A stretch of DNA of 64,000 nucleotides, taken from the NCBI RefSeq assembly GCF_023101185.1, contig NZ_CP078077.1, forward strand, positions 1,331,630-1,395,629, in the 5' to 3' direction. The stretch is from Microbacterium galbinum (GTDB lineage: Bacteria > Actinomycetota > Actinomycetes > Actinomycetales > Microbacteriaceae). The position numbers were made by a program, and so were the translations under genes. Positions 43,866 to 64,000 of the stretch are shown here, piece after piece (the first letter of the stretch is position 1; every line of letters begins with the position of its first letter). The notes beneath the pieces are model-generated. The model made no database searches, was not told the origin of the DNA, and saw only the letters and a list, made by a program, of their open reading frames with translations.

Positions 43866-44192
43866 GTGGGGAACACTCGCGTTCGCGCGCGCCTTTCGCG
43901 CACCCTTTCGATCCTTACCCTGGCGGCTGCGCTCGCCACAGGACCGGTCCTCGTCGCGCCCGCCGAACCCGCCGCCGCGGCATCCGGGTTCACACAGGCC
44001 GCGACCGATCGAGCCCTGACGGGCGAGACGCCGTCGCCGCACACGGAGGTGAGCGACAGCACCGGGCTAACGCCCGCGAACCTCGCCATCGCCGGCCTGA
44101 GCGGCGCCTTGCTGCTCGCCGTCATCGGCGGGGTGGTTCTCGACGTGCGTCGTCGCCGCCCGTCGCGGCGGAATCGGATGCCGGGGGTGTGA
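43866..44192 (+). CDS. Small secreted, membrane-anchored protein
   Basis: 108 aa, GTG start behind AAGGAGAA. Signal peptide ending about AAAASG, a 35-residue polar segment, then a C-terminal helix (LAIAGLSGALLLAVIGGVVL) and RRRR. The LAIAG before the helix resembles a worn LAxTG signal but lacks Thr. It opens the surface-protein region. Function unknown. Confidence 0.75.
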   Translation: MGNTRVRARLSRTLSILTLAAALATGPVLVAPAEPAAAASGFTQAATDRALTGETPSPHTEVSDSTGLTPANLAIAGLSGALLLAVIGGVVLDVRRRRPSRRNRMPGV

Positions 44193-44249
44193 GCGCATCG
44201 ATAGAGTGTGCGCGGGGATGACCGCGTATGCGATGAGGGGATTCACGGA

Positions 44250-45641
44250 ATGACGGTTTCGACGCGCACTTTTCGTGGTGCACGGAGGCGGGTTCTCGCA
44301 GCTCTCGGCGGGGTGTTCGCGCTCGCGTTGGCAGCGGGCGCGGCTGCGGTGCCGGCCCAGGCGGCGGAGGTTCCGCTCGCGGTGACGCCGGGGGCCTGCG
44401 TGCCCGCCGACGTCTACGTGAACAGCGGCGAAGACCCGCTCACCCTGCAGCGCTACGGGGCGGATGCCGCGACCGGTGCTCTCGCGCTCGAGTCGAGCGT
44501 CGCGCTCGACCGCTCGTTCGGCGACATCGCCTGGAACGCCGATGAGACCGTGCTCTACGGGGTGGACTGGACCGACCCGCAGCACCTCTTCACGATCGAT
44601 GCCGCCACGGGCGTCTCGACGGATGCCGGCGAGATCCTGTTCGACGACGGCAGCGCCCCCTTCGAGGACAACTGGCTCAACTCGCTCTCCGCCACGGCCG
44701 ACGGCCGGCTCCTCGCCGCCGGGTACCTGTACACGAGCATCTGGTTCCTCGATCCGGAGACCGCGCGGCTGACCGATGCGCCGGTGAGCTTCCCGATGCT
44801 GGCCGACGGCGAGACGTACCTCGCCTCGGGCGGCGACTTCCTCACCCTCGACTCCGGTCTGATCCTCGGTCTCGCCCACGACGGCGCCGACCGCGGGTTC
44901 CTCGTGCTGTTCGACTTCGCCGCCGGTACCAGCACGGTCGTCGGCCAGGTGCCGCTGTCGTTCGGTGCGGCGCTCTCGGGCGGACGCGTGTACCTCGCGG
45001 CATCGACCGGCGAGATCCTCGTGCTCGACGGCATCCCGACCACGGCATCCGAAGCTCCGTTGGCGACCTCCGTCGTCGCCACGACCGATCTCCCCCTGTA
45101 CGGAGCGACCTCGCGCCAGGACTCGGGGGCGTGCCCCGTCGCGGCGCTGACGTTCGTGAAGAACCTCACCGGCAACGATGATGCCGACGGCTCGGGAACG
45201 GTGACCGTCGGCGACACGCTGAGCTACACGCTGACGGCGACCAACACGGGCGAAACCGCTCTCACCACCGTCACGGTCGACGACCCGCTCACGGGGCAGA
45301 GCACCTCGTGCGAGCGGGTGGAGGTCGGGGCGGCCTGCGTGCTCGCGGCGACGCACCGGGTGACGGACGTCGACCTCGTCGCCGGCCAGATCGTGAACAC
45401 GGGGCGGGCGAGTTCGGCCGAGACGGATGCCGTCGAGGATGCCGTCACCACGCCGGTCGTGGCCGCACCGGCCCCTCAACCCAGCACGGGCGGCGGCGGT
45501 GCTGCTGCGGCTCCCGCTCTCGCCGAGTCCGGCGGCGCCACCGGACTGCCCGCCATCATCGCGGCGATGGGTCTGCTTCTCTGGGGGGCGGTTCTCGTGA
45601 TCCGTGAACTTCACCCCCGGTTCACCCACCGCGCTCCGTAA
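44250..45641 (+). CDS. Secreted surface protein with propeller-like and DUF11-type domains
   Basis: 463 aa. Signal peptide ends near PAQAA. The first 270 residues have WD/propeller-like repeats (DIAWNADETVLYGVDW, SLSATADGRLLAAG). Then a conserved DUF11/DUF7507-type domain (LSYTLTATNTGETALTTVTV, then DDPLTG). The tail is LAESG (424-428), a membrane helix and an atypical RELHPRFTHRAP end without the usual Arg run. ATG 44250 follows GAGGGGATTCACGG. Its last codons carry a PHO-box-like element. Confidence 0.82.
   Translation: MTVSTRTFRGARRRVLAALGGVFALALAAGAAAVPAQAAEVPLAVTPGACVPADVYVNSGEDPLTLQRYGADAATGALALESSVALDRSFGDIAWNADETVLYGVDWTDPQHLFTIDAATGVSTDAGEILFDDGSAPFEDNWLNSLSATADGRLLAAGYLYTSIWFLDPETARLTDAPVSFPMLADGETYLASGGDFLTLDSGLILGLAHDGADRGFLVLFDFAAGTSTVVGQVPLSFGAALSGGRVYLAASTGEILVLDGIPTTASEAPLATSVVATTDLPLYGATSRQDSGACPVAALTFVKNLTGNDDADGSGTVTVGDTLSYTLTATNTGETALTTVTVDDPLTGQSTSCERVEVGAACVLAATHRVTDVDLVAGQIVNTGRASSAETDAVEDAVTTPVVAAPAPQPSTGGGGAAAAPALAESGGATGLPAIIAAMGLLLWGAVLVIRELHPRFTHRAP
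45609..45630 (+). promoter_or_regulatory. PHO-box-like 11-nt direct repeat 1
   Basis: CTTCACCCCCG GTTCACCCACC: two 11-nt units with TTCACCC at the same place in each. This is the form of the Streptomyces PHO box (GTTCACC units every 11 nt). It lies in the 3' end of the 463-aa gene, 173 bp before the 1163-aa gene. Confidence 0.55.
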
Positions 45642-45674
45642 TCGGAGCCCTTCTTCCCCGTCTCTCCAGTGCAG

Positions 45675-45745
45675 GGGTCTTCGGACCCGTGCGTGAACGC
45701 CCGGTTCCCGAGGCCGCGGCGTTCGACGAGTACCGGAATCGGTAC
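45675..45745 (+). other. Hairpins between two surface-protein genes
   Basis: GGGTC-TTCG-GACCC (45675-45688) with a stable tetraloop, and GTACCG-GAAT-CGGTAC (45730-45745). The first may end the 463-aa transcript, the second lies in the leader of the 1163-aa gene. The start 45803 follows TGGAGTAATCG. Confidence 0.45.
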
Positions 45746-45802: not shown

Positions 45803-48800
45803 ATGTCTGAGCACATCGCGCGGCGATCCCGCGCGCGCACATTCGTTCACTGGCTGGCGGGTATCCTCGTCGCCCTCATGTCCATCGGCGGGCTGAGCGC
45901 TCCGGCGCTCGCCGCGGGTGGCACGGTCACGGTCTTCCCGATCGACACCGGAAGCGGACACAACGGCATGCCCGTGCTGACGGAGGGTGGAACCTACGCC
46001 TTCCAGCTCGGCTACGGCAGCATGGACGACGGTGCCGTCGTCGCGATCGGCCTGCCGTCGGGGATCACGATCCCCGATGCGGCTCTCACCGTTCCCGACG
46101 GCAACACCGCCGTTCGCTCCCTCGCGGTCAACGCCGCCGGCGAGCTCGTCGTGACGTTCAACGATCCGTTCCCGGCCGATGTGAACCAGGGCGTTCTCGA
46201 TCTCTCGTTCACCGTCGACAAAGTGCAGCGGTCCGAGGTCCGCGACCTGGTCTGGAACGTCGACGGCACCCCCACGACCCAGAAGGTGATCATCACCGAA
46301 CCCGGCGAGTCGCCGCAGTCGACGGGCACATCGTCGAACAAGTCGGTCGGCGGCGTGAACATTCCGCACACGGTCGTCGACGGTCGCGTCGTGATCGACC
46401 CGAGCGCGCTCGACATCGCCCTGCCGTACACGGTCACCGTGTCGAGCAGGGAGGCGCGCGACATCACGGTGACCGACACCCTCGGCGCCCACCTCGCCTT
46501 CGTCGAGGGGTCGCTCGCCGGCACCAAGGTCGTACGCGACGGGAACGACCTGAACCCGGTCACCACCGCGCTCGCCGATCTGCCCGCGATCTCGGGCACG
46601 AGCTTCGCCCACACCTTCCGTGCCGAGGCGAACTCGATCTACACCTTCACCTATCGGGCGACCATAGCCGACGCCGCTGCCCTCGAGGCCGTACGCGCCG
46701 ACCTGCAGCGCGCGTACGACGCCGTCGACAAGATCAACGGCGGTTCCTACTCCGTCACCGTCACCAACCAGGTCGACGTGAACGGCACGAAGCACAGCGC
46801 CGGCACCGCCATCCGCGGTTCGGTCAAGGGCCAGGACCGGCCGGGAACGGGCGCCGCCTTCGGCAAGACCGTCGACCCGACCGCCGTACAGCTGCAGAAG
46901 CAGCTCGCCGCCGGCGCGACCCTCGAGACGGCGATCGACGCGACCTACACGCTGCGCGCCGACCTGCGCGTCTTCGCCGACTTCGCCGACGGCCCGTTCG
47001 CGCTGACGCGCAACGTCGTCATCCGTGACACACTGCCGGCTCAGACGTCGTGGAAGACGGATGCCGCCGGCTTCCTCACCGCGATCGATCAGGACGGCAC
47101 CGCCGTCGCACTCCGCCCCGCCACGGGCATCACGAGCGACGTCGAGAAGACGATCGCCGCCGACGAGTACCGGGGCACCTACGTCGTCGACGGCAAGAAC
47201 CTCTTCGTGAACATCGGCAAGGACGTCACCAGGGAGTACCGCCTCGCGGCCGCCGCCACGATCACCGCTCTGCCGCAGCAGGCGAGCAGCGACAACCAGT
47301 ACGCGACCCAGTACCGCGTGTCGAACGATGCGTACTTCGTGTACGACGACGGCAAGTACGAGTCGAAGTCGGCCTCGACGACGATCACCGTTCCGAAGGA
47401 CACCTCGGGCGGCGTCGACGACCCGGGCCGGTTCTCGAAGACCGCCCCGGGCGGAACCGTCTCGGTCACCGGCGGCACGTCGACGACGATCCCGTACACG
47501 TTCCGCATCGGTGAGAACGTCGGAGACGCCGCGACCTCGCGCATCGTCGACGAGATCGATCACTCGATCTTCGACGTGACCGCGGCGACGCTCCCCGCGA
47601 TCAAGGAGTCGATCACCGGCGCCTACGACTACAACTACCCGCTCGACGCCGACACGTTCGACGTGACGATCGCCGAAGACGGCACGCTGGTCATCGCCCC
47701 GAACGACGCGTTCCCCCAGGACGCCGCGTGGGGAGCATCCGCCGCAGCCCCGTTCCTGAAGAGCTGGGCGATCACGCTCGACCTGCCCACCCAGGTTTTG
47801 CAGGGCAAGCAGACCATCGAGGTCGACAACGCCGCGCGGTACGAGGGGGAGGGTCAGGAGATCGTCTACACCTCGACCTCGCGCACGACGGCGACCAGCT
47901 TCGGCAACGAGATGGAGGTGCGCAAGCGCGTCTACGACGCCGCGAACGACGCCTTCACCGGAAGCCTGCGGGTCGAGATGGATGCCGAGGGCGCCCTGAC
48001 GCAGACCGACTTCATCTACCGCGTCGAGCTCATGCCGCACGGCACCTTCACCCACATGGTCGAGGACGTCGTCGACGTGCTGCCCGCGGGCGTGGAGTTC
48101 CTGGGATGGGTCGCACCGGGTGACGTGACCTCGGGCACGACGACCGGCGGTGCCACCTACACGGTGCCGGGCACGAACATCACGGCTGCGTACGACGCGT
48201 CGACCGACACGGTCACGCTCGAGCGCGGACGCCTCGTGAGCGGTGAGACGCTGGCCCTGTTCTTCAAGGTGCGCGTCGTCGACTACCAGGCGAACGTCGG
48301 CATCACCAACATGATCGGCGCCGTCGGCGCCACGATCACGCCGACGAACGACTACCCGCTGAACCTGCTCAAGCGCGACAGCACGGATGCCGCGAAGCTG
48401 ATCACCGACGCGGGCGCCCGCTTCTCGGTGCTGGCCGACGACCAGCAGACGGTCGTGCTGAGCGACCTGCGCGTGGTCGACGGCAAGATCGTCACGGCCG
48501 AGGGCACGACGCCGACCGTGAAGAGCGCCGGAACGTTCTGGCTGCGCGAGGACGTCGCGCCCGCCGGGTACCAGCTGGCGACCGAGCTCACCCGCATCGC
48601 CGTCGCGGCGAACGGGGTCTCGGACGACGTGGCGCTCTACAACACCCCGGGCACGACGCCCGAGCCCGAGAAGACGTACGCGATCGGCGACGTCACGTGG
48701 ATCGACGCGAACAAGGACGGCCGACAGGACGACGACGAGCAGGTTCTGCCCGGCGTGACCGTCGAGCTCATCCAGGACGGCGAGGTCATTGCGACTACGA

Positions 48801-49294
48801 CGACCGACGAGCGCGGCCGCTACCTGTTCGACGAACTGCCGGCCGGGGAGTATCGCGTGAAGTTCACCCTGACCGCGGACCAGAAGAAGACGTACGTCTT
48901 CACGCAGGCGGATGCCGGGGCGGACGACACCGTGGACTCGGATGCGGACACCACGACCGGCATGACGCAGACGATCGTGCTCGGGCCGGACAACGTCCAC
49001 CTCTCGCGCGATTACGAATGGAACGACGTGCGGGCCACCGAGGGCGTCGACCCGACCTGGGATGCCGGCGTGATCGTGCGCGAAGCGCCGACCGAACCGA
49101 CGCCGGGCACCCCGGGTGCAGGCGCCGAGGAGCCGGGAGAGAGCCCGGTCGACCCGGCGCGGCCGGGCACCCCGGGCGTCAACGCGCTCGCCACGACGGG
49201 CGGCGACCTGCCGCTCGCGCTCGCCGGAATCGCGCTGCTGCTGATCTCGGGAGGTGCCGTCACGTTCGCCGTACGACGACGCCGCGCGGTCTGA
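45803..49294 (+). CDS. LATTG surface adhesin with SpaA/SdrD-B-like domains
   Basis: 1163 aa. Signal peptide to about LAAGG (38). A long region of beta-sandwich modules of isopeptide-forming type follows. Near 850-940 is a SpaA-like domain (GARFSVLADDQQTV, then FWLREDVAPAGYQLATELTR). Near 955-1090 is an SdrD-B/collagen-binding-B-like domain (IGDVTWIDANKDGRQDDDEQ, LPGVTVELIQDGEVIATTTT, DERGRYLFDELPAGEY) with a Ca-type DxNxDG loop. Tail: Pro/Glu-rich spacer, LATTG (1129-1133), helix, RRRRAV. A wall-anchored adhesin or pilin-like protein for the class E sortase. Confidence 0.9.
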   Translation: MSEHIARRSRARTFVHWLAGILVALMSIGGLSAPALAAGGTVTVFPIDTGSGHNGMPVLTEGGTYAFQLGYGSMDDGAVVAIGLPSGITIPDAALTVPDGNTAVRSLAVNAAGELVVTFNDPFPADVNQGVLDLSFTVDKVQRSEVRDLVWNVDGTPTTQKVIITEPGESPQSTGTSSNKSVGGVNIPHTVVDGRVVIDPSALDIALPYTVTVSSREARDITVTDTLGAHLAFVEGSLAGTKVVRDGNDLNPVTTALADLPAISGTSFAHTFRAEANSIYTFTYRATIADAAALEAVRADLQRAYDAVDKINGGSYSVTVTNQVDVNGTKHSAGTAIRGSVKGQDRPGTGAAFGKTVDPTAVQLQKQLAAGATLETAIDATYTLRADLRVFADFADGPFALTRNVVIRDTLPAQTSWKTDAAGFLTAIDQDGTAVALRPATGITSDVEKTIAADEYRGTYVVDGKNLFVNIGKDVTREYRLAAAATITALPQQASSDNQYATQYRVSNDAYFVYDDGKYESKSASTTITVPKDTSGGVDDPGRFSKTAPGGTVSVTGGTSTTIPYTFRIGENVGDAATSRIVDEIDHSIFDVTAATLPAIKESITGAYDYNYPLDADTFDVTIAEDGTLVIAPNDAFPQDAAWGASAAAPFLKSWAITLDLPTQVLQGKQTIEVDNAARYEGEGQEIVYTSTSRTTATSFGNEMEVRKRVYDAANDAFTGSLRVEMDAEGALTQTDFIYRVELMPHGTFTHMVEDVVDVLPAGVEFLGWVAPGDVTSGTTTGGATYTVPGTNITAAYDASTDTVTLERGRLVSGETLALFFKVRVVDYQANVGITNMIGAVGATITPTNDYPLNLLKRDSTDAAKLITDAGARFSVLADDQQTVVLSDLRVVDGKIVTAEGTTPTVKSAGTFWLREDVAPAGYQLATELTRIAVAANGVSDDVALYNTPGTTPEPEKTYAIGDVTWIDANKDGRQDDDEQVLPGVTVELIQDGEVIATTTTDERGRYLFDELPAGEYRVKFTLTADQKKTYVFTQADAGADDTVDSDADTTTGMTQTIVLGPDNVHLSRDYEWNDVRATEGVDPTWDAGVIVREAPTEPTPGTPGAGAEEPGESPVDPARPGTPGVNALATTGGDLPLALAGIALLLISGGAVTFAVRRRRAV

Positions 49295-49353: not shown

Positions 49354-49375
49354 GGTGGGTGAAGCGAGGGTGAAG
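49354..49375 (-). promoter_or_regulatory. PHO-box-like 11-nt direct repeat 2
   Basis: Reading the minus strand: CTTCACCCTCG CTTCACCCACC, the same two-unit layout as 45609-45630 with few changes. It lies directly behind the terminator and 105 bp before the 1853-aa gene. Confidence 0.55.
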
Positions 49376-49479: not shown

Positions 49480-52400
49480 ATGACCGGTCCATCTCGCGCG
49501 CCCTCGCGCCTGCGCACCGCAGCCGTCGCCATGCTGGCGACGCTCGCCACCGTCACGATGATGCTGGTGGCCGCGCCCGCGGCGTACGCGGCGGGACCCG
49601 CCGTGCTCTCGATCGAGATCACGCCGGTGAATCCCACCACCGGCGAGGCGGTGACGGCGACCGGGTACGGACAGCAGAACAACCGTCTCGGATACCGCAT
49701 CGCGTACTCCTGCTCGGTCGCCGAGTGCACCGACACCGTGGTCACGCTGCCCGCGGTCGCCCTCGACCCGACCTACGGCACCTTCCGCATCCACCGCTAC
49801 GAGACGTGGACACCGCCCGCCGGCGGTGGCGCGACGATCGCCAACACGGTGACGGGCGGAGTCACCGTGCGATTGGGCACCGTCGCGGCCGGGACGTCGT
49901 CGACGTTCCTCGTGCAGTACGTGCGCGACATCGACGCCAGCGCGCCCGGCGCCGCGGCTCCCGCCTACTTCCCGAACGGATACCAGATCAGCAACTCGGC
50001 GACGATCACCTCGCCGAACGCGGTCGGACCCGCCACGGCCACTGCAGCGCCGGTCACGTGGCAGATCGCATTGCCCGCAACGCCCACCGTCGTGAAGACC
50101 GGTCCGGCGACGGTGCGCCCCGACACCGACATGACCTACACGGTCGCGATGTCGGACGGGTGCTTCACCAACCGCGGCTCCGGTCGCTGGACCGCCGCGG
50201 GCAACCTGCTCTGCGGCGAGAGTTACAGCGTGGTGGATCGGCTGCCTGCCCAGGCGCAGTTCGTCAGCGCCGGGGACGGCGGCGTCTACGACGCGGCGAA
50301 TCACAGCGTGACCTGGACGAAGTCCGGCGCGACCGCGGCCGGTGGATTCGGTGTCGCCGCCGTGGGCGGCTGGACCCAGGGGTACGGATACAACCCGCGC
50401 ACCGTGACGGTCCGCTATCCCGCGAGCGCCTTCCCCGAGTCGGCGGACGGAGCGGACTTCATCGCTCCCGTCACCAACAACGTCGATGTCAGTGTGACCT
50501 ACCTCGACGACGCGCAGACCGTGAAGACGGCGACCACCTCGTTCCGGCACGATGTCGTGCGGGTCGAGCCGTTCGGCCGCGCCGAGCAGACGAAGATCGG
50601 CAACGCCGACCAGGACATCAACGGATCACGCTGGGTGAACGTTCCGCCGGACACGACCGGACTGGTCTGTCCGACGAGCGGCCGCGACGACTGGAACCGC
50701 GTCTGCACGCCGGGACAGACCGTCGCGCCATTCGCGACGCGCACCGACCGCTTCTGGCAGGTCGACACCTACAACCGCGGCAACGTCGCCGGCATCGCGA
50801 CCGTCGTCGACAACGATCTGGGCAACTCCGACGTGCGCGTGCGGCGGATCACGACCTCGGGCGGCGCGACCGCACCGACGATCGCCTGGACGATCACCGA
50901 CGGCACGACGACGACGCAGGGAACCACGACCGCGACCACCTACACGGCCCCGGCGGGCTCGTGGCTGACCGCGGCCACCGTGACCTCCGGTTCGCTGGCC
51001 GGCCCCAACCTGCTTCCGAGCGGCACGGCCGGAACCCTCTTCCGCATCAACTACGGGTACGACCTTCCCGTGGGCAGCCCGCTGTTCACGTGGCGCAACG
51101 CTGCGTCGGCGACCATGACCTACCCCGATCAGCCGCAGATCTCCCCGATCCCGGTGACCTCGACCGCAGCGGTGATCTTCCGCGAAACCCCGAAGGTCGC
51201 CGCCGCGGCGCCCGCTTTCAGCGCGGGATTCGTCGGCACACCGGTGGTCGAGGGCGGCGGACAGGTCGTTCCCGGGGGCAAGGTGACGTACCGCGTCAAC
51301 GGCGCCACTGCCAATATTCCGGCCGACCGTACGGTTTCGCCCCAGTACGTCTTCATCGCACCGATCGGGTGGAACATCACTCCGAACTCGGCGAGCTTCG
51401 CCGCGGGAACCGTGCCGCCGGGAGTGAGCTTCACCTCCAAGAACGTGACGATCGCAGGCGTGACGCGTCAGGCGGTCATCGCCTCGTGGCCGACCGGGGC
51501 GACGTTCGGCGCCAACGCGACCTGGCCGACGATGAGCGTCTCGGCGAGCCCGACCTCGGCGGTCGCCGCCGGAACGAGCAGTGTCGCGAACGTCTGGACA
51601 GGAGACTCGCGCAATGCGTTCGCTCCGGACACCACCACATGGGGCGGAAAGGTCGTCGACACGACGGACGTCGACGGAGACGGCAACATCACGGAGGCGT
51701 TCGCCTCGAACTCCATCAGCGTCTCGGTGAGCGGCGTGGCACGTCTCGACGTCGTGAAGGAGATCTGCGTGGTGACCGACGACGACTGCGTGTGGGTGTC
51801 GAACCCCGACGTGGTGGTCGGCGTCGATCCCGACGCGAGTGACATCACCTACCGCGTCACGCTCGTGAACTCGGGAAACACCGTGCTCTCGGGCATCGTC
51901 GGCTACGACATCCTGCCGCACGTCGGCGACGGCCGCGGCAGCACGTTCGCCGAAACGTTGAACACCGTCACCTTCCGATCCTTCAACATGGCGCTGAGCT
52001 ACTCGGCGTCGCAGAATCCGTGCCGCACCGAGGTGCTCCCCACGAACCCCGGATGCACCACCGGGTGGACGGCCGGCGCGTTCGGTGCCTCCGCGATCCG
52101 CGCGCAGGTGAGCGGCAATCTCGCACCGGGAGAATCGTCGTCGTTCGAGTTCACGGCCAACGTCGTGCCGGGCGCCCCCGCCGACGCGATCGCCTGCAAT
52201 TCGGTCGCCATCGACAGCGCCAGCACACTGCCGACCGAACCGCGCCCGGTGTGCGCGACCACGCAGGAGGCCGATCTCGCGGTCTCGGTGCCCGATCGCC
52301 TGCCGCTGCAGGCCGGACGCCCCGGCACGGTTCCCTTCGTGGTGACGAACCTCGGCGGGTCGGAGGCTGCGCCGGCGACCGTCGAGATCGCCGTTCCTGC

Positions 52401-55136: not shown

Positions 55137-56714
55137 ATGAGCAGTGATCCCCTGGGTGACGTGCGCCTCCGACCGTCCCCCGACCAGGTCGAGCACGGCC
55201 TGCGCCGCGCGCTCGATGAGGAGGACTGGTCGTCGGCCGTGCAACTGCTCGGCACACACTGGTCTCTGCTCCTGGACGAGCATCGGGAGCTCCTCGACCT
55301 GGCCCTGAAGGCCGTGCCGCTCGGTGCGTTCGAGCAGGATGCCCGCGCCGCGGCCGTGCGCGACATCCGCCTGCACTCCTCGGCGGACGCCGTCGACCGG
55401 ATGCTGGGCGCTGCCACTCTCCCCGACGCCGACGACACCGCGAAGCTGGAGTCCCTCGCGCGTTCGGAGCGAGCGCTCAGCCTGCTCAGCGTCGCCTCGT
55501 CGCGCATGATCGCGCTCCGCGTGCGAGGCAGGATGTCACGCGCGATCCAGCTCGCCCGGCTGGTGGAGATGTTCGGGCGCATCGCCGCGGTGCATCAGCC
55601 CGCACTCGTGCACGATCGTCTGCCGGCGGCGCTGCTGCAGGCGGGGATCACGCGCGGACTCGCCGACGACCTCCCCGGCGCCACCGTCGGGCTGCGCGAT
55701 GCCTACGAACGCGCTCATCAGTCCCGCGTCGCCTACGTCGAAAGGGATGCCGCCGGGAAGTCGGCCCTCTTCCATGCGCTGGAGGGCGACATCGAGCAGG
55801 CGCGCTCCTGGCTGGAGCGTCACGACGATGCACCGACCGCCGACGGCTGGTATCGCTCCCGGATCGCGCTCACCGCGGATGTCGCGCGGAGCCTCGTCGC
55901 GATCGAGGGTCTCCGGTCGTCCGAGGCCCAGGCCGCCGTGCGCTTGCTCGATCAGCCCGTCAACGCCGAGCAGAGCTGGGGGCCGACCGTCTCTTACGCT
56001 CGGCTGCGCTACGCGCTGGCGTGGGGGGACCGGCTCAGCGCGCTGGATTCACTGCGCTCGGATCGCGTCAGGTACGCGGAGTGGCTGGGCGAAGGCACGA
56101 CGATGGGACCCCTGTTGGCCCAGGGAGAGGTCGATCTCCTGCTCTCCCTGGGGCAGACGCGTCAGGCGCGCCTCGTCATCGACGCTCAGGACGACCACCT
56201 CGTGAACCGTGTGGCGCGCGCGCAGCTCGCCCTCGTCGAGGGAGACGTCGTCGGGGCGGCGCGTCGTGCGGCGGCGACGCTGGGGGAGAGGCAGACGATC
56301 CGCGCGCGGGTGAAGGCCCTGACGGTGCACGCCGTCGCCACCGATCGCCGTCCCGGGGGGATGAGTGCGGCCGAGAGCTACTCGGATCTCAGAGCGGCGA
56401 TCGGCGAGCGCGGGTTGCTGTTCGCTGCGCTGAGCGTGCCGGCCGATGTGCGAGGGCCGCTCGATGCGCTCCTGCCACCGGATCACGGCGCACGCCAAGT
56501 GCTTCCGGATCCGACGGATCGGGTGCGCCTGACGCCCCAGCAGCAGCACGTGCTCCTCGGGCTCGAGCGGGGCCTCACCGTGCGTGAGATCGCGCTCGAA
56601 TCGCACCTGTCGACCAACACCGTGAAGTCGCACGCACGGGCGCTCTACCGCCGTCTCGAGTCGACGACTCGCGATGAGGTGATCGGGCGGGCCTACGAGC
56701 TGGGGCTGTTGTGA
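55137..56714 (+). CDS. LuxR-type regulator 1, helical-repeat N-terminus
   Basis: 525 aa, no receiver domain and no visible ATPase Walker A. Residues 1-450 are helical with TPR-like alternation (DEEDWSSAVQLLGTHWSLLL; RDAAGKSALFHALEGDIEQA). The C-terminal HTH is LTPQQQHVLLGLERGLTVRE, then IALESHLSTNTVKSHARALY. It resembles the solenoid arm of MalT-type regulators without the NTPase. The start ATG lacks a close ribosome site. It follows the giant LATTG protein in the same direction and shares layout with two genes downstream. Signal unknown. Confidence 0.85.
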   Translation: MSSDPLGDVRLRPSPDQVEHGLRRALDEEDWSSAVQLLGTHWSLLLDEHRELLDLALKAVPLGAFEQDARAAAVRDIRLHSSADAVDRMLGAATLPDADDTAKLESLARSERALSLLSVASSRMIALRVRGRMSRAIQLARLVEMFGRIAAVHQPALVHDRLPAALLQAGITRGLADDLPGATVGLRDAYERAHQSRVAYVERDAAGKSALFHALEGDIEQARSWLERHDDAPTADGWYRSRIALTADVARSLVAIEGLRSSEAQAAVRLLDQPVNAEQSWGPTVSYARLRYALAWGDRLSALDSLRSDRVRYAEWLGEGTTMGPLLAQGEVDLLLSLGQTRQARLVIDAQDDHLVNRVARAQLALVEGDVVGAARRAAATLGERQTIRARVKALTVHAVATDRRPGGMSAAESYSDLRAAIGERGLLFAALSVPADVRGPLDALLPPDHGARQVLPDPTDRVRLTPQQQHVLLGLERGLTVREIALESHLSTNTVKSHARALYRRLESTTRDEVIGRAYELGLL

Positions 56715-57274
56715 GGTGCCTCCGTACGGTTTCGTCCGACGCCGGCGCGATGCAGGGCGGAGGCGAGGGCGCCGGAGAGCTCCGACGCCAGCAACTCGCC
56801 GACGATGCGCCCGAGGAATGATCCCAGCAGGATCGCCGGGGAGAGGTGCTCGGGCGAGAACACGACGACGGAGACCCCGAAGAGAGCCGTCCCGGCGCAC
56901 ACCGCCGCCAGGAGATACCGTCGGCGTACCCGCGCGCCCGTGCCTCGCGTGCGCCAGACGACGAGATCGATGACCGCTCCGGCCAGCACCAGCGGGAAGA
57001 TCACGATCACTCCCGCGGTGTTCGCGACCGCGATGAAGACGGCGGCGATCGCACTGGTGAGCACGGCCGTGCCCGGCACATCGGTCAGCCGCCGGGCCAG
57101 GAACGGCAGGAGGCTGTGCACTCCGGCCACCAGTGCGTACAGCGGCGGGGCGAGCGGGGCGAGCGCGGTGAGCAGGGGGGCGGTCGCGAGGTGGATCAAC
57201 AGGTGCACCGCGGCCAGCGCTCCGCAGATCAAGAGCACGCGAGTCGTCGGGCGACGATGAGTCGGGGAAGCCAT
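56693..57274 (-). CDS. Multi-pass membrane protein, possibly ECF-transporter S-component-like
   Basis: 193 aa, about five to six helices (LLICGALAAVHLLIHLATAP; VFIAVANTAGVIVIFPLVLA). The layout resembles ECF transporter S components, but no substrate motif is certain. ATG 57274 is 7 nt behind TACGGT. Its 3' end overlaps LuxR1 by 22 nt on the opposite strand. Confidence 0.6.
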   Translation of the reverse strand: MASPTHRRPTTRVLLICGALAAVHLLIHLATAPLLTALAPLAPPLYALVAGVHSLLPFLARRLTDVPGTAVLTSAIAAVFIAVANTAGVIVIFPLVLAGAVIDLVVWRTRGTGARVRRRYLLAAVCAGTALFGVSVVVFSPEHLSPAILLGSFLGRIVGELLASELSGALASALHRAGVGRNRTEAPHNSPSS

Positions 57275-57316
57275 CACCCTCACCGTATCGGGGTATCTCG
57301 GGTCGCCACGTCGCAA

Positions 57317-57322: not shown

Positions 57323-57384
57323 AGAAGGCGAACCGATGCCATGCGAGATGCCGGAGGGGCTCTCGCATCAGGGAGGTGAGGTTC

Positions 57385-58941
57385 GTGGAGTGGTCTCGGA
57401 GTGGGCGCGACGCGCTCCTCGGCGACCTGCGCTCCTTCCTCGATCACGAGCAGTGGGACGACATCGCGATCCTGCTCGACGACTACTTCTTCGCCCTGTC
57501 GTTCGCTGCACCGGAAGCGGTCTTCGAGGTGTGGGAACGGGCTCCTCGCGAGTGGCTGCAGGAGCATCCGCGGTACCTGATGGCGCGGGAACTGACCCGC
57601 AAGGCCTGGCGGTCGTCGGCGCTCACCGAGCACCGCATCGAGCGGATCTTCGCCGACTGGGTCGCATCGCAGGAGCATCCGATGGCCCGCGACGTGCTCG
57701 GCGTGAAGACGGCCGAGATCCGCCGCCTCCTCGCGTTCGGACGCATCGAGGAGGCGCTCGGCGCCGTCGCCGAGGTGCAGGAGCTGATCCGCACGACGCG
57801 CGATCACGACGGATTCGACGACGTGCTGGGCAGCGTGCTCATGCGCATGGGCCTGACGTTCGTGGCCGGCGGCGAGCTGGAGCGCGCGGTCGAGGCGTTC
57901 TCCGAGGGGTGGCGTTGGTCGCGCAGCACCCTCCCGCATCCGATCGCCCCGTATCTGGCCGGGCACTGCGCGCTCGCGCACGCGCTCGCCGGAGACTTCG
58001 CGCACGCCGAGGAGTGGCTCGCCCGCAGCGTGGAGGACGCCTCCGAAGATCCACGCACGATGGCGTTCCACCTGCAGAAGGCGGCGGCGCTCAGCCGCAC
58101 GCTCATCGCAGTCGCCCGCCTCGACCGCGCCGAGGCGGAGGCCTCGCTGGCCGAGCACGCCGACAGGATCGACGACGGCGACCTGTGGTGGGTAGATGCG
58201 CACGTGCGTGCGCGCATCGACCTGTACTGGGGCGACGGAACGCGGAGCGCGCGGCTCATTGAGCGTGCACTCGCGGCCTATCCCTCCGCGACCGCGCCCG
58301 CGTCGCTTCCCGGGATGCTGCTGCGGGCCGACCTCTCCGACATCCTCCAGCACCGGGGTGACCTCGATCGTGCGGGGGACGTGCTCGAACACGTCGAGAT
58401 CGTCGACGCGCACGCCTCGGCCGTCACGGCCCAGGCGCGCCTGCTGATGCACCGGAAGCGAGCGGGTGACGCCCTCTCCCTGCTCGACAGAGCATCCGCC
58501 CGTCGCCGCACTCCCGCAGTGGTGCCGGCGCGCTGGCTCGTGATCCGCGCCAACGCCGCACATCTGCTGGAGCGGCCGAGCGTGGTCGAGGTCGTGCGCC
58601 TGGCCGCCGACCGCATCGCGTCCACCGGTGCCCATGACGCGGTGCACGAGGCGATGCCCGAGGTGCGCGCCGCGATCGACGAGCGGATGCCGTCGGCCGA
58701 AGCTGCGGTCGCAGAGGCTGCCGCCGACGACGACGACGCCGCCGCGCCACCCGAGGGTGCGATCGCGCTCACCCGGCGGGAGCGCCAGATGCTGGAGCTG
58801 ATGCGCACGCACGCGTCGGTGCGTGACCTCGCGGGAGCACTGTTCATCTCGGCGAACACCGCGAAGAGCCACCTGCGAAACCTCTACCGCAAGCTGGGCG
58901 CGACCGGGCGCGAAGACGCCTTGCGCCGGGCGGGGTACTGA
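57385..58941 (+). CDS. LuxR-type regulator 2, helical-repeat N-terminus
   Basis: 518 aa, same build as LuxR1. N-terminal solenoid with repeated GxxExAxEAxxEG turns (VAGGELERAVEAFSEGWRWS; LAGDFAHAEEWLARSVEDAS). The HTH is LTRRERQMLELMRTHASVRD, then LAGALFISANTAKSHLRNLY. The acidic stretch ADDDDAAAP links the two. The GTG at 57385 is chosen because GGGAGG lies 8 nt upstream; an in-frame GTG at 57376 overlaps that site. Confidence 0.85.
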   Translation: MEWSRSGRDALLGDLRSFLDHEQWDDIAILLDDYFFALSFAAPEAVFEVWERAPREWLQEHPRYLMARELTRKAWRSSALTEHRIERIFADWVASQEHPMARDVLGVKTAEIRRLLAFGRIEEALGAVAEVQELIRTTRDHDGFDDVLGSVLMRMGLTFVAGGELERAVEAFSEGWRWSRSTLPHPIAPYLAGHCALAHALAGDFAHAEEWLARSVEDASEDPRTMAFHLQKAAALSRTLIAVARLDRAEAEASLAEHADRIDDGDLWWVDAHVRARIDLYWGDGTRSARLIERALAAYPSATAPASLPGMLLRADLSDILQHRGDLDRAGDVLEHVEIVDAHASAVTAQARLLMHRKRAGDALSLLDRASARRRTPAVVPARWLVIRANAAHLLERPSVVEVVRLAADRIASTGAHDAVHEAMPEVRAAIDERMPSAEAAVAEAAADDDDAAAPPEGAIALTRRERQMLELMRTHASVRDLAGALFISANTAKSHLRNLYRKLGATGREDALRRAGY

Positions 58942-58986: not shown

Positions 58987-59015
58987 GGTGAGATTCTGGC
59001 CCGTCGCTCGTCTAG
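58987..59015 (+). promoter_or_regulatory. Shared ECF-type promoter A (upstream of the sigma-like gene)
   Basis: GGTGA, 17 nt, CGTCTAG. The 29 bp match 61670-61698 at 23 positions without gaps, including GTCGCTCGTCTAG at the end. CGTC is a common -10 core for actinobacterial ECF sigma factors. It implies a leader of about 280 nt. Confidence 0.6.
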
Positions 59016-59162: not shown

Positions 59163-59211
59163 CCTCACCCCTCTCCACAGAGGGTGAGGGGGTGGGTGAT
59201 CTCGTGGGTGA
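59163..59211 (+). repeat. Phased GGGTGA repeats and hairpin in the sigma-like gene leader
   Basis: CCTCACCC (59163-59170) pairs with GGGTGAGG (59182-59189). GGGTGA occurs at 59182, 59194 and 59206, exactly 12 bp apart. Apart from these and promoter A, the 360 bp between LuxR2 and the sigma-like gene show no gene. Confidence 0.6.
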
Positions 59212-59262
59212 TTTTTCGGGGCTCGCCGTTTCAGAGCACCCCTCTTCTTGTTCTCTTCTCAT

Positions 59263-59301: not shown

Positions 59302-60075
59302 ATGATCGATGTGGATGGACCGACGCGCTTCGCGACGGATGCTGCGGCATGGGATGAGAACGACCTCGCCCGTGCGACGAATGGGGGCGAGCGCGGGGCG
59401 GCCGATGTGCTGTTTACTCGGAGCATGCCCACCCTGCTGAACCTCTCGCGTGCGATCGCGGGGCGAGCGATGGAGGCCGAGGAGCTGCTCGCGGTCGCGC
59501 TGCTCTCGACCTGGGAGAAATGGTCGCAGGGTCGCGGCCCGGTCGAGAACGCCCACGCCTACATCGCCCAGACGATGCGTAATCGTCTGCGCGATGAGAT
59601 GCGCGCGCCGCGGTCGCGCAACGTCGCGCTCGACGACGCGAATGTGCACGAGTTCGCGCATCACGACGAGACCGATCGCATCCATGCGGCGATCGACAAC
59701 GAGATCGTCGGGGTGGCGTTCGCGCGGTTGTCGGACGAACAGCGGATGCTCCTCACCGAGGTGCTGGTCAACGGGCGCAAGCCGCAGGAGGTCGCTCGCG
59801 AGCTCGGGCGTTCGTCGGGGAGGGTGAGCTCGGCGGTCTACCGCGCGAAGGCCGCGCTGCGAACCGAGCTGGTGGCCGAGTGCCTGAGGCGGGCGTGCCC
59901 CGGGGCGGGGTGCGGGACCGACCAGGAGGGGATCGCTCTGCTGATCGGTGCGAAGCACACGTGGAATGCCGGTCATCCCGCCGTAGCCGCAGCGCACGAG
60001 TGCCCCGGATGCCGGGCGGGCCTGCAGGCCTACGCGGCGCTGCCCGGGGCGCAGTCCGTGACGGTCGCCGCGTGA
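59302..60075 (+). CDS. Sigma-70/ECF-like factor with C-terminal Cys-rich tail
   Basis: 257 aa. Region 2: TRSMPTLLNLSRAIAGRAME, then VALLSTWEKWSQG and AYIAQTMRNRLRDEMR. Region 4: FARLSDEQRMLLTEVLVNGR, then KPQEVARELGRSSGRVSSAV. Beyond the sigma core, residues 190-257 hold C194, C199, C203, a HTWNAGHP segment and HECPGC (Cys 234 and 237), reminiscent of a zinc-binding anti-sigma module fused in place. Good ribosome site. LuxR3 follows 32 nt later. Promoter A may be its own target. Confidence 0.85.
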   Translation: MIDVDGPTRFATDAAAWDENDLARATNGGERGAADVLFTRSMPTLLNLSRAIAGRAMEAEELLAVALLSTWEKWSQGRGPVENAHAYIAQTMRNRLRDEMRAPRSRNVALDDANVHEFAHHDETDRIHAAIDNEIVGVAFARLSDEQRMLLTEVLVNGRKPQEVARELGRSSGRVSSAVYRAKAALRTELVAECLRRACPGAGCGTDQEGIALLIGAKHTWNAGHPAVAAAHECPGCRAGLQAYAALPGAQSVTVAA

Positions 60076-60107: not shown

Positions 60108-61649
60108 GTGTCCTCGTACGTCAGCGCCGACGCCGGCGACGCGCTCGCCGATGCCCTCCGTTCGGGGGATGAGGATGCCGTCGCCGCCGTGCTCACCCTG
60201 CACGTGTGGCCGCTGCTCAACGCCCACTACGACGCCTTCGAGCGGGCGTTCCGAGCCCTTCCGGTCACCGTGCGCGCCCGGCACTTCCCCCTCGAAGCCC
60301 TCGGTCAACTCGCGATGGTGACCGGGTCGCAGCGCGCCCGCGAGGTGCTGCTCTTCGATCATCGCCGGGTCGCGGCGAAGGAGGCCGGTGGCATCCACTT
60401 CGTGCAGCTCCTCGCCGCACGGCTCGCCGGCGACTACTCCGCGGCGAACCGATCGGCTTCCCGCCTCGCCGACTGGAGTCGTGCGGCGGAGGCCGAGGGC
60501 CTCGTCGCCGACGGGCCGGCGGCATTCTTCATGGCGCAGAGCGGGTTCACCGAGCTGCTGAACGGACGCACGGCGACGGCCGTCCGCCGATTCGGACAGG
60601 CCCGGCGGATGGCGGCGACCGCCACGCTGCACGACAGCGAACGTGACGCTCTCGGCAAGTCCGCGCTCGCGCACATCGTGCGCGGATCGATCGCCAGCGC
60701 TCGGCAGGCCCTCGCGCTGGCCCAGGAACTCCCGGTGCGCGCCCCCACCGTCTTCCAGCGCTTCTCGGCGAGCACGGAGCGCGCAGCACGGGCACTCATC
60801 GCCGTCGAGCAGCAGGACGACGCCGCGTCGGCGCTCGCGCCCCTTACGCTTCTGGAGTCCGCCGACGAACTCTGGCCGTTCAAGCTGCTCGCTCTCGCGC
60901 GGGACGCCCTCGCCCGCGAGTCCCCCCTCGAAGCGCTCGAGTTCGTCACGGTCGCGCAGTCGACTCAGCTCATCCCCGCGCGATCCCTCGCCTCCGACGC
61001 CGTGACGGCGCTGCGGGTCGACGCGTTCCTCGCGATGGATCAGCCCCTCGCCGCCTCCCGTGTGAGCGACAACGACGAGACCGGCATCCTCACCCGTCTC
61101 GCGCGCATGCGCGTGGCCATCCGCTCGGGGGATCGGGAACGCGCTCGCCGCCTGAGCACGGTGATCGTCTCCGACCCCGATGCCACGCCGCACGTGCAGC
61201 TCGAGTCGCGGCTGCTGCTCGCCTGGGTCGACGTGCTCGACGAGGCCTCGCTGAGCCCGGCGACGGCCGCGATGGCCACCGCCTACGCGGCGCAGCGTGG
61301 GGCGCGCCTGTTCACGGGGGTGCCGGGGTACGTGCTCGAGGCGCTGCGCGCGCTCGTGCGCGACCCCGACGCGATCCCGCTGCCCGAGTCGTCGGGGTTG
61401 ACGACGAGTCAGTCGTTGCTGCGGCATCCGCTCACGCAGCGCGAACGACGTGTGCTGGTCGCCGCGTCGACGTCGGCGACGCTCGCCGAGATGGCCGTCG
61501 ACCTCAAGGTGTCGCGCAATACGGTCAAGACCCAGCTCTCGTCGCTGTACCGCAAGCTCGGCGTCGGGTCGCGAGCGGATGCCGTCGCCGCCGCGACCCG
61601 TCTGGGGCTGCTCGGAACGACTCCCCTCCCCGATCCAGACTCCGTGTGA
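60108..61649 (+). CDS. LuxR-type regulator 3, helical-repeat N-terminus
   Basis: 513 aa. Solenoid N-terminus similar to LuxR1 (LTLHVWPLLNAHYDAFERAF; HDSERDALGKSALAHIVRGS). C-terminal HTH: LTQRERRVLVAASTSATLAE, then MAVDLKVSRNTVKTQLSSLY. No receiver. The GTG at 60108 is forced by an in-frame stop 4 nt before. Probably co-transcribed with the sigma-like gene and upstream of the last surface protein. Confidence 0.85.
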   Translation: MSSYVSADAGDALADALRSGDEDAVAAVLTLHVWPLLNAHYDAFERAFRALPVTVRARHFPLEALGQLAMVTGSQRAREVLLFDHRRVAAKEAGGIHFVQLLAARLAGDYSAANRSASRLADWSRAAEAEGLVADGPAAFFMAQSGFTELLNGRTATAVRRFGQARRMAATATLHDSERDALGKSALAHIVRGSIASARQALALAQELPVRAPTVFQRFSASTERAARALIAVEQQDDAASALAPLTLLESADELWPFKLLALARDALARESPLEALEFVTVAQSTQLIPARSLASDAVTALRVDAFLAMDQPLAASRVSDNDETGILTRLARMRVAIRSGDRERARRLSTVIVSDPDATPHVQLESRLLLAWVDVLDEASLSPATAAMATAYAAQRGARLFTGVPGYVLEALRALVRDPDAIPLPESSGLTTSQSLLRHPLTQRERRVLVAASTSATLAEMAVDLKVSRNTVKTQLSSLYRKLGVGSRADAVAAATRLGLLGTTPLPDPDSV

Positions 61650-61669: not shown

Positions 61670-61698
61670 GGTGATGTTCCGAGCGGTCGCTCGTCTAG
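61670..61698 (+). promoter_or_regulatory. Shared ECF-type promoter B (upstream of the last surface protein)
   Basis: GGTGA, 17 nt, CGTCTAG; near-copy of promoter A. It begins 21 nt after the LuxR3 stop and lies 60 bp before the surface protein ATG. Confidence 0.6.
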
Positions 61699-61757
61699 TT
61701 AAGGATCGCTGGCGCTCCGCGCCGGACGACACATCATCTGGATGGGGAGGAATCGGA

Positions 61758-64000
61758 ATGAGTAACGAGAGAAGACCGCGCGGGGGCGCGGTCGCACGGA
61801 CATGGGGGCGGCGACTACGTCGCGCCATCGGTCTCGGTGCCGTGGGCATCCTGGCGAGCTCGGGGCTCGTTCTGGGAGCGGTCGCGCCCGCGAGCGCGGC
61901 TGACGGAGACTTCACGATCGATCTGCAGGCGCCGGAGTCGGTACCTGTGGGCCAGTCGTTCAACTACACGGCGACCCTCGACTTCGAGGGACCGGCGACG
62001 ACGCACAGCGGCGTCGTGCTGACGACGACCATTCCGGAGGGACTCGCCTTCGAGTCCTGCCCGATCGGCGGATCGTCGCCCATCGCGAGCTGCTCGTTCG
62101 ATGCGGGCACGCGCGCTCTCACGATCACTCTGAACGACACCGACACCGACCCGCTCAGCGTGGCGTACACGGTGCGCCAGCAGCCCTACAACGACCGCTA
62201 CGAGGGTGAGGTCTTCGCGACCTCGATCACCGGTACCGGTGGGCCTTCGGGCGCCGTGACGTCTGACCCGGTCGAGACGGTGCTGACCGGCTCGAACGAT
62301 TACGACGCGGCGAAGGGTTTCGAGACGCTCACGGGTAGCGACAACCGCACCGTGACCTACAAGTTCAACATCGGTGTCGGAGGCCCGATCCCCGGGACCT
62401 TCGCCTCGCACGCGCAGGAACTGATCGACACCTTCCCCGCCGGGGTCGAGTTCGTGAGTTCGAACGCCGGAATCGGTTCGTGGGACGTGTCGGCGTTCCC
62501 GACCGTCAAATGGTCGAACGACACCGTCTTCTACGCCTTCGGATCGATCGACATGTCAGGCAATGCGATCTCGATCACGGTTCGGTACCCCGAGGAGTCG
62601 TTCCCGGGGCTGGTGCGTCCGCCCACGAACACGGTCGATCTTCGCACCCAGGACGCGAACGGCGTCTGGCACGACGGGTCGCCCGCATCGGTGCAGTCGG
62701 TTCCCTTCACCGACGGCAATGCACCCGGCGTCGCCGCGTCGAAGGAGTTCCTCTTCGGCGGGAGTTCCGCAGGGTACCTGTCGCTCGCGGTCGTGATGAA
62801 GGGCGCCTACATCGGCCCGGTGGGAACGCCGAACCTCGACGCCCTCGTCCTGGAGGACTCGGGCGCGGCGGGCAGCCCGAATGCCGCGTGGTTCGAGCAC
62901 TACAACGTCCTCAACCTCGATGTCGCCTTCAACGGCGTGCTCGCCGCGGCCGACCTTCCGTACACCCTGGAGTACCAGGTCAACGGATCGCCGACCTGGC
63001 GCAGCGTGACGCCGGCGAGCGGCACGGGCGCGTCGGCGAGGTTCGTCGCCCATGTCGTGGGTTCCGAGGGGTGGGATGCGGGCGTCTCGCTGGGACTCGC
63101 GGCCGGCGAGACGCTGAGCGGATGGCGCATCGTCGTCGCGCCCGGCGCGGAGACGGTTCCGCTGGCGAGTGAGGTGCAGGTGACCATGGCGGGGCAGCCG
63201 GTGTTCCGGTCGATCTCCGAGGGCATCATCGAAGCTCCCGCACCTGCAGGAGCGCCAGTCGGACCGGTGGACAACACGCTCAGCGTGCGCAACGGCGACA
63301 GCTCCATGACCGCCGAGGACGACTACTCCTTCACGCCCGCTGACTCCGTCTACCTGACCACGCGGATCGACGGCCCCTCGTCGATGAGCGTCGGCGGGAC
63401 CGGAACCTATCGCGCGGGCATCGTCAACCAGAACCCCAGCGAGGTCTACCAGGACTCGGTGATGTCGGTTCTGCTGCCCTGCGGTGTGCTGTACGACTCG
63501 ACCCAGCAGATCTCTCCCGTGAACCCGCCCACGCTCGGTATCCCGACTCCTGCTCCGGCGATCGGCTCGGGTGTGACGGTCGATGCGTCGAAGCGCATCA
63601 CGAACGCTGACGGCTGCGAGCAGCAGGTCGTCGAGTTCACGTTCGACGAGGTGCCGCCGATGCGTGCGCCCGGGGTGGCGAACCACCGCGGCGTCGAGAA
63701 CACCGGCTGGATGTACGACATCCCGGTCACCGTTCTCGCCGAGGCGTACGACCCGACCGCGACCACCATCGCCCCGCAGTCGTGGGTGCATACGAACGAC
63801 CCGCGCTTCCTCAGCGTCGCCGACGGCGGTACGGGAGCGGCGACGGTGCCGATGATCGGTTACAACCCGTTCTTCAACACCGATCTGAACGACTTCGACC
63901 CCGTGCGCGGCGTCATCGCCTACGCGCAGACGTTGACCACGATCAACACCGCCGGTGGCGTGTTGATCGACAAGCTGTCGTCGGCATCCGTCGATGGACC
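61758..64000 (+). CDS. Large secreted surface protein (partial, runs off the right edge)
   Basis: Open from ATG 61758 to the window end (747 codons and part of another) with no stop. The ribosome site is GGGAGGAATCGG. An Arg-rich signal peptide ends near PASAADG. After it come DUF11-like beta domains (VPVGQSFNYTATLDFEGPAT; FPGLVRPPTNTVDLRTQDAN), and near 540 a further repeat (SSMSVGGTGTYRAGIVNQNP). No catalytic motif seen. The C-terminal sorting signal, if any, lies outside the window. Relation to the other surface proteins is by style, not by clear homology. Confidence 0.88.
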   Translation, partial: MSNERRPRGGAVARTWGRRLRRAIGLGAVGILASSGLVLGAVAPASAADGDFTIDLQAPESVPVGQSFNYTATLDFEGPATTHSGVVLTTTIPEGLAFESCPIGGSSPIASCSFDAGTRALTITLNDTDTDPLSVAYTVRQQPYNDRYEGEVFATSITGTGGPSGAVTSDPVETVLTGSNDYDAAKGFETLTGSDNRTVTYKFNIGVGGPIPGTFASHAQELIDTFPAGVEFVSSNAGIGSWDVSAFPTVKWSNDTVFYAFGSIDMSGNAISITVRYPEESFPGLVRPPTNTVDLRTQDANGVWHDGSPASVQSVPFTDGNAPGVAASKEFLFGGSSAGYLSLAVVMKGAYIGPVGTPNLDALVLEDSGAAGSPNAAWFEHYNVLNLDVAFNGVLAAADLPYTLEYQVNGSPTWRSVTPASGTGASARFVAHVVGSEGWDAGVSLGLAAGETLSGWRIVVAPGAETVPLASEVQVTMAGQPVFRSISEGIIEAPAPAGAPVGPVDNTLSVRNGDSSMTAEDDYSFTPADSVYLTTRIDGPSSMSVGGTGTYRAGIVNQNPSEVYQDSVMSVLLPCGVLYDSTQQISPVNPPTLGIPTPAPAIGSGVTVDASKRITNADGCEQQVVEFTFDEVPPMRAPGVANHRGVENTGWMYDIPVTVLAEAYDPTATTIAPQSWVHTNDPRFLSVADGGTGAATVPMIGYNPFFNTDLNDFDPVRGVIAYAQTLTTINTAGGVLIDKLSSASVDG

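Follow-up and report, generated by a model that had tools for sequence, protein, structure and literature searches.

MalT-like regulators without an NTPase half and two sigma factors are predicted to control a surface-protein island in Microbacterium galbinum

MalT of Escherichia coli and Klebsiella is a LAL-type STAND activator with an arm, a TPR-type sensor and a C-terminal LuxR helix-turn-helix (HTH). The isolated MalT arm-sensor binds inducer tightly without the nucleoside triphosphatase (NTPase) part, as described in an excerpt of PMC4381067. The core of the MalT repeat is GGA(T/G)GA, and an excerpt of PMC7567727 refers to work cited there in which two MalT sites in direct repeat are described. 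The same excerpt presents the Actinoplanes MalT (ACSP50_3915) as the activator of a non-maltose region in an actinobacterium, with a conserved operator. Among sigma factors, the closest described systems are ECF48/ECF52/ECF53 (SCO4117) of the extracytoplasmic function (ECF) type. Their sigma domain is fused to a zinc-finger and transmembrane (TM) anti-sigma-like part for which proteolytic release is proposed, and autoactivation has been suggested for SCO4117 (excerpts of PMC8999054 and PMC5826349). Here we analyzed a window of 64,000 nucleotides from Microbacterium galbinum (C1:1331630-1395629), whose genome (G000) is one contig of 3.46 Mb. An island in this window carries, from left to right, the secreted- or surface-type proteins S108, S477, S1163 and S1882, the regulator REG1, the membrane protein TM207 (reverse), REG2, the sigma factor SIG1, REG3 and a further surface protein, S61k (Table 1). 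It continues past the window end on the adjoining stretch L011 with the end of S61k, an RCC1-repeat surface protein (RCC1) and a second sigma factor, SIG2. The DNA stretches compared are designated L###, L010 being the window and L099 a copy of L035. We think it probable that this island is one of surface-protein control, with the NTPase-less regulators predicted to act on boxes upstream of S1163 and S1882, and SIG1 and SIG2 predicted to serve S61k, RCC1 and at least one sigma gene. The sequence itself shows which domains the regulators have, the two cis elements and where they lie, and that in relatives these elements again accompany genes of the same types. The parts are of known kinds. Their combination had been unfamiliar to the first-pass annotation, and full-text literature searches, judged by titles and abstract openings, gave no description of it.

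REG1, REG2 and REG3 (525, 521 and 513 aa) are, as first proposed, receiver-less regulators with a C-terminal LuxR HTH. The GerE/LuxR HTH exceeds the Pfam cut-off in each (35, 48 and 40 bits, respectively) and is the sole Pfam match to do so. No Pfam receiver family was found in the three proteins, and the NCBIfam response-regulator models cover almost only the HTH end. Beyond its close group, REG1 has among its best relatives regulators of 822-884 aa with a P-loop. One of these, the 861-aa P0044, aligns with REG1 over residues 345-855 (38% identity, 515 columns); REG2 and REG3 are 22% and 27% identical to P0047. No P-loop or NTPase-like sequence was found in the open reading frame (ORF) or the 1.5 kb upstream of any of the three genes. 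The AlphaFold2 (AF2) model of REG1, built from 31 sequences, is almost all helix with a predicted local distance difference test (pLDDT) score of 87.8, and MalT domain III (1hz4) is its fifth match in the PDB with a TM-score of just 0.35 to the query. Judged by the alignment, the lack of NTPase sequence and the model with its 1hz4 match, REG1-3 correspond to the portion of MalT/STAND activators that holds the arm, the TPR-type sensor and the LuxR HTH, with the NTPase half absent. Unlike MalT and other LAL proteins, they lack the P-loop half (nucleotide-binding, helical and winged-helix domains), have surface genes as neighbors, and show no link to a sugar. As in MalT, the arm-sensor part would be the site of ligand binding, here without an ATP-driven oligomer switch.

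The three regulators had been described as looking like paralogs, with a common layout and a GKSAL turn. They are homologous when aligned, and the turn is present in REG1 and REG3, but REG2 has GHCAL and the relationship is remote. REG1 is 28% identical to REG3 over 383 aa and 24% identical to REG2 over 409 aa; REG2 and REG3 can be aligned only over 52 HTH residues. In an unrooted tree of the family (83 members, a duplicate row left out) the three fall in separate supported groups, ruling out tandem duplication or a recent triplication. By our labels 48 members are without and 35 with an NTPase. Two labels are unsure: L105, labelled as without, has a short called ORF yet NTPase-like sequence upstream, and L125 is an 840-aa ORF without a recognizable NTPase. 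The label switches five times on the tree as labelled, four times with L105 relabelled and five times with both relabelled. Since the tree is unrooted, we infer rather than observe the direction of NTPase change. A contig scan with an alignment of 31 regulators gave nine pattern matches at three loci; one with three sequences gave 105, none confirmed. A plasmid search with REG2 gave no match.

To follow the family beyond the window, we ran a profile of 38 regulator sequences on 149 genomes of the genus. It matched at 1e-18 in 135 of them, generic MalT-like regulators included. We then took up to 20 kb of DNA surrounding regulators with or without an NTPase and looked, within about 10 kb, for ORFs of 500 aa or more that end in a sortase-type tail. 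Such an anchored protein is encoded near 36 of 69 regulators, comprising 7/15 and 8/14 loci of the first search and 21/40 further loci taken in score order. Only four of 23 generic MalT-like loci (three first-search loci set aside as dissimilar and twenty low-scoring ones) and none of 40 fixed-position control sites have one. The 21/40 differ from 0/40 with p = 1e-8 and from 4/23 with p = 0.006, Fisher values that ignore phylogeny although relatives are not independent. Some loci of the first set are short contigs, an effect that can only make the count too low, and the tail test admits a few false ORFs. When regulators were clustered at 40% identity, 19 of 33 clusters had an anchored gene near some member. 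The paired surface genes vary in length, type and orientation, and the pairing is also found in three loci of the same order from two other families (L066, L067, L078). Ordinary LAL-type regulators could instead lie near surface genes by chance, proximity without function; such regulators are indeed common, as the 135 of 149 genomes attest. The 21/40 against 0/40 and the specific boxes upstream make this reading highly improbable.

The exact island is not conserved in L034, the corresponding 21.5 kb of a relative. S1163 (74% identical) and REG1 are kept there, and that stretch has no S1882, REG2, SIG1, REG3 or S61k. What recurs across the genus is the pairing of regulator and surface gene rather than the neighborhood that had been proposed for a search in relatives. 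Comparison of the DNA upstream of S1163 with its L034 counterpart revealed the pair CTTCACCC..TTCACCC, and a second pair lies on the other strand before S1882. Exact TTCACCC pairs with a period of 11-13 bp occur in 29 of 72 regulator loci (L032 left out) versus none of 63 control loci, which amounts to 32 pairs in 1.37 Mb and 0 in 1.26 Mb. At a period of 10 or 14 bp neither set has an exact pair. The regulator loci contain 53 tail-bearing ORFs of 500 aa or more; 20 of these are preceded by an exact pair and 28 by a pair with one mismatch or none (periods 10-13 bp, here and for other genes). The figures for 907 genes in 60 control loci are 0 and 4. By shuffling, 0.01 pairs are expected in the window and two are found. 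These two, at 45610 and 49357, are the only exact pairs with an N4 or N5 spacer in the whole genome, where the reversed pattern occurs once. Across the 149 genomes these N4/N5 forms, searched without the 13-bp form, occur 70 times in 55 genomes and the reversed pattern four times. Of these sites, at least 33 are within 20 kb and at least 28 within 10 kb of one of the 116 regulators listed, with about 1 and 0.5 expected.

The box read in reverse, GGGTGAA, contains GGGTGA, one base away from the MalT core. The Actinoplanes operator differs in being an inverted repeat, TCATCC-N5-GGATGA, and the targets in that excerpt are a large region resembling amino-acid metabolism. Exact pairs with an 11-bp period are found in 11 loci with NTPase-less regulators and one with an NTPase (L092); a 12-13-bp period is found in none of the former and 17 of the latter, L105 being counted as with (p = 3e-7, without kinship correction). 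Mainly because the box period follows NTPase state, we infer that the regulators bind the TTCACCC boxes. All seven other REG1-clade loci with exact pairs have the 11-bp period, and REG1 is therefore the likely reader of the boxes before S1163 and S1882. No paper came up in a literature search aimed at such tandem boxes and their regulator.

A second conserved element marks other genes of the island. The sequence GTGANNTTC-N12-CGTC is common to S61k, SIG1 and their counterparts in L122 (S61k 52% identical to L122:13211-17077 over 764 columns; SIG1 61% over 228 aa). The form GTSANNTTC-N12-CGTY precedes SIG1, S61k and RCC1; in relatives it again stands before sigma genes and their surface partners. 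A looser pattern, GTGANNTTC-N10-CTCGTCNAG with three mismatches, was unspecific (36 + 34 versus 21 + 33 in the control), and the tighter N12-CGTY was kept. In the window's genome GTSAGATTC-N12-CGTY has four exact and eight one-mismatch sites, five of the latter outside the stretches compared, and the reversed control has none. They include SIG1, RCC1, a SIG2-like sigma gene (C1:1115928-1117229) and the anchored gene beside it. In a weight-matrix scan of 1880 upstream regions, 12 score at least 20 bits and the next 16.0; five of the 12 are outside the training set, including a sigma gene in L200 and its anchored neighbor. The L122 sites are missing from these 12 because of gene-start calls. Neither S1163 nor S1882 is among the matches in the 1880 regions, and no close TTCACCC pair was found upstream of S61k or RCC1. 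The regulators had been proposed to switch the adhesin genes on and off; the target genes appear to be split between them and the sigma factors. The element differs from CSGYN-17-SRHA, the SCO4117 motif as given in the excerpts, in which the neighbors also differ from the sortase-type surface genes here.

SIG1 and SIG2 likely carry built-in switches. SIG2 has ECF sigma2 and sigma4 regions (Sigma70_r2 40.8 bits, over the cut-off of 24; r4_2 22.3 bits, under 25.7), the motif HIRDCPRC (HxxxCxxC), similar in its homologs and without a Pfam zinc-finger match at 0.01, and two hydrophobic stretches in a hydropathy scan that qualify as TM helices. In these features it resembles ECF48/52/53 as described in the excerpts. 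Unlike them, its C-terminal part is short (about 120 aa) with no carbohydrate-binding domain in Pfam at 0.01, and SIG1 has no TM segment. Assignment of SIG2 to ECF52 was rejected, as the proline-rich linker and carbohydrate-binding part are missing. All four near-full-length SIG2 matches (window contig, L198, L199, L200), out of a search that also gave many partial ones, have an adjoining anchored gene. SIG2-type genes also lie beside a regulator in L094, L108 and G008. SIG1 and SIG2 would transcribe S61k, RCC1 and at least one sigma gene from the second element. The fused part of SIG2, with HxxxCxxC and TM segments, may keep this factor at the membrane until an outside signal frees it, as proposed for ECF48/52/53. 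Boxes upstream of SIG1, together with an exact TTCACCC pair before its L122 ortholog (L122:12231-12249), suggest a cascade from regulator to SIG1 to S61k.

With the element before S61k, RCC1 and sigma genes, and with the known MalT switch taken away by NTPase loss, REG1-3 could be ligand-independent repressors or inactive relics, leaving only sigma factors with fused switch domains to control the surface genes. NTPase-less forms nevertheless make up more than half of the sampled family (48/83, L105 included), with HTH and solenoid kept in old clades, and S1163 and S1882 carry boxes and are not among the matches to the sigma element. We regard this reading as quite improbable.

The control of surface genes by both regulators and sigma factors, which we favor, has several points weighing against it besides the kinship left out of the Fisher values and the two unsure labels. 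Thirty-three of the 69 regulator loci have no large anchored gene within 10 kb, some generic MalT-like loci do have surface neighbors, and the nearest relatives of REG3 mostly adjoin other genes, several of them multi-TM. The SIG1 boxes in the window are degenerate, with two mismatches per pair. With one mismatch allowed, five pairs (11-13 bp) appear in the controls and 62 in regulator loci. Among 801 other genes in regulator loci, 21 have an exact pair upstream and 44 one with at most one mismatch, partly in an upstream region common with a surface gene. Thirty-seven of the 70 genome-wide pairs lie away from the 116 regulators listed, 12 of them being one identical sequence. For S477 and S108 neither box nor sigma-type element was found. 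Some of the same loci had served to train the weight matrix, L198-L200 had been chosen for their SIG2 homologs, and the element is rare over all 131 anchored genes (six at 12 bits or more, versus 20 of 1749 others).

The distant pairs and the differing content of L034 would also fit a hot spot, a variable-gene island in which frequent gain and loss brings surface genes and regulators together, with the boxes belonging to an unrelated factor that controls surface genes and the regulators controlling something else. Such a hot spot is unlikely, as the box period tracks the NTPase state of the neighboring regulator, the box resembles the MalT core, the 63 control loci are without exact pairs, and the pairing recurs with different surface proteins and orientations. 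We keep to a surface-gene function for the regulators, with NTPase-less MalT-like proteins predicted to bind the tandem boxes before S1163 and S1882. The regulatory set first suggested holds as a family coupled to surface genes with tandem boxes upstream; REG1-3, drawn from three clades, are not a co-evolving triplet.

TM207 may provide the input. Its AF2 model (18 sequences, pLDDT 91) has the fold of an S-component of an energy-coupling factor (ECF) transporter, the best PDB match being 5edl (TM-score 0.78, E 2e-5). Seven of the 18 aligned members, though not the window's own copy, match PF09819 with E values of 1 or less, the best being 7e-12. We take TM207 to be a YkoE-type S-component and 5edl to be YkoE. 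Of the 19 best TM207 hits in the 149 genomes (E <1e-20), at least 16 are within 10 kb of a listed regulator, the exceptions being in G030 (no regulator listed on the contig), G122:C1 and G131:C10; none of 15 weaker hits is. TM207 and REG1 are convergent with 3' ends overlapping by 22 bases, and a TM207-type gene is head-to-head with a regulator in L084 and L098. Unlike an ECF transporter component, TM207 adjoins a regulator, and no ECF ATPase or T module gene was called beside it in the window, the genome not having been searched for a shared module. TM207 could be a membrane partner or ligand receptor for REG1.

More tentatively, the genus may possess a surface-coat switch in which MalT-type regulators, many ATPase-less, each read TTCACCC arrays. 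Upon ATPase loss the spacing would have shifted from 12-13 bp to 11 bp, one turn of the helix; the signal would come from the S-component as receptor and not transporter, and part of the coat would be under self-activating sigma factors with their own membrane-anchored inhibitor. If so, a common actinobacterial genus has dedicated control of giant surface proteins, for which operators, promoters and partner proteins are predicted here. Regulators of the STAND type with and without an ATPase, each with its own operator spacing, would form natural sets for the role of the ATPase in DNA reading. There would also be a case for asking how a transporter-like membrane protein might act as a signal input.

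Table 1. Genes and cis elements of the island. Positions refer to the window unless a stretch is named.
Feature	Position	Strand	Remarks
S108, small secreted-type protein	43866..44192	+	signal-like N-terminus, C-terminal hydrophobic stretch and basic tail
S477, anchored surface-type protein with DUF7507	44208..45641	+	PF24346 45.9 bits
S1163, surface protein SdrD_B/SpaA, LATTG sorting signal	45803..49294	+	PF17210 102 bits, PF17802 56 bits
S1882, giant DUF7507/DUF11 surface protein, LATTG sorting signal	49480..55041 (longest ORF from 49393)	+	PF24346 456 bits, 5 stretches
REG1, NTPase-less MalT-like LuxR regulator, 525 aa	55137..56714	+	alignment to 861-aa P-loop regulator, AF2 model
TM207, ECF-transporter S-component-like membrane protein, 207-aa ORF	56693..57316, likely start 57274	-	AF2 model
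REG2, NTPase-less MalT-like regulator, 521 aa, own clade	57376..58941	+	GerE 47.7 bits; tree
SIG1, ECF-like sigma factor, C-terminal HxCxxC, no TM	59302..60075 (ORF from 59248)	+	Sigma70_r2 31 bits, r4_2 33 bits
REG3, NTPase-less MalT-like regulator, 513 aa, own clade	60108..61649	+	GerE 39.7 bits; tree
S61k, anchored surface protein, 1179 aa	likely start 61758, past 64000 to L011:1927	+	window joined to adjoining same-contig stretch
RCC1, RCC1-repeat surface protein	L011:2089-4233		after S61k
SIG2, second sigma factor	L011:4271-5716		after RCC1 surface gene
TTCACCC-N4-TTCACCC	45610..45627	+	first base 193 nt before S1163, within S477 3' end; kept at L034:2700-2717 before S1163 ortholog
TTCACCC-N4-TTCACCC	49357..49374	-	106 nt before likely S1882 start 49480
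Three CTCACCC/ATCACCC boxes, 12-bp period, degenerate TTCACCC array	59182..59212	-	between sigma-type element and SIG1 start
GTGAGATTC-N12-CGTC, upstream of SIG1	58988..59012	+	same element before SIG1 ortholog, L122:12058
GTGATGTTC-N12-CGTC, upstream of S61k	61671..61695	+	conserved at L122:13124

The layout agrees with the first description of four large secreted proteins and a sigma-like factor mostly in one direction. S477, S1163, S1882 and S61k each have a signal-like N-terminus and a C-terminal sorting-type tail, SIG1 is of the sigma-70 type, and only TM207 is on the reverse strand. The features of sortase substrates (LPxTG-like signal, TM segment, basic tail) are present in the island surface proteins; S1163 exceeds the NCBIfam LAVTG cut-off (32 versus 27 bits) and S1882 is under it (21 bits). 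For S108 a Pfam search at 0.01 gave no match. Ribosome-site-like sequence just upstream was the basis for the likely starts of S1882 (GGGGAG), SIG1 and S61k. Scans of the island for sigma-70 promoters (one promoter-like site versus 0.6 in shuffles) and terminators (one versus 3.5) were not used.

Some relatives differ in what adjoins the regulators. REG3-type regulators lie by multi-TM genes and not large anchored proteins in L072, L109, L113, L114 and L116, and are clustered in L072 (three) and L109 (two). A small protein whose C-terminus reads FPWFRP followed by basic residues is also encoded in L072 and L116, and a box pair with one mismatch precedes its gene. The window's genome has a fourth full-length regulator, in L032, which is outside the 69 and 72 loci; its neighbor is a 229-aa protein with three TM segments, and neither a large anchored gene nor an exact box pair was found there. 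In L034 (relative PS02344) a long reverse ORF, 7301-10408, presumably resembling a glycoside phosphorylase, is flanked by the S1163 ortholog and REG1, in the position that S1882 has in the window. Near REG1-type or related regulators (L035:12315-12959, L036:12204-12872 and neighbors in L100, L102 and L106) there is a gene for a small exported-type protein with a conserved C-terminal SEKTSGSRVP; in L035 and L100 a TTCACCC pair precedes this gene. We take the start of the protein to be twin-arginine-like; the L035 and L036 copies have no Pfam match.

Further copies of the cis elements were also seen. The identical sequence TTCACCCGCGACTTCACCC, away from listed regulators, is shared by 12 genomes (G011, G159, G154, G141, G013, G100, G185, G125, G103, G015, G137, G169). 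An exact sigma-type element is at G000:C1:2093729. The second SIG2-like locus of this genome, L198:1806-6837 (G000:C1:1112306-1117337), has four such elements, which precede the sigma gene, the anchored protein and two other genes. Residues 380-463 of SIG2 (L011) align weakly with residues 978-1069 of S1882 (ORF from 49393), at 29% over 96 columns. We do not claim the SIG2 tail as a copy of a surface-protein domain, the BLAST match being weak (E 1e-4 in a tiny database with composition correction off). Outside the island, positions 38859-40292 of the window hold a reverse 477-aa ORF with what we presume to be an HNH-like C-terminus.

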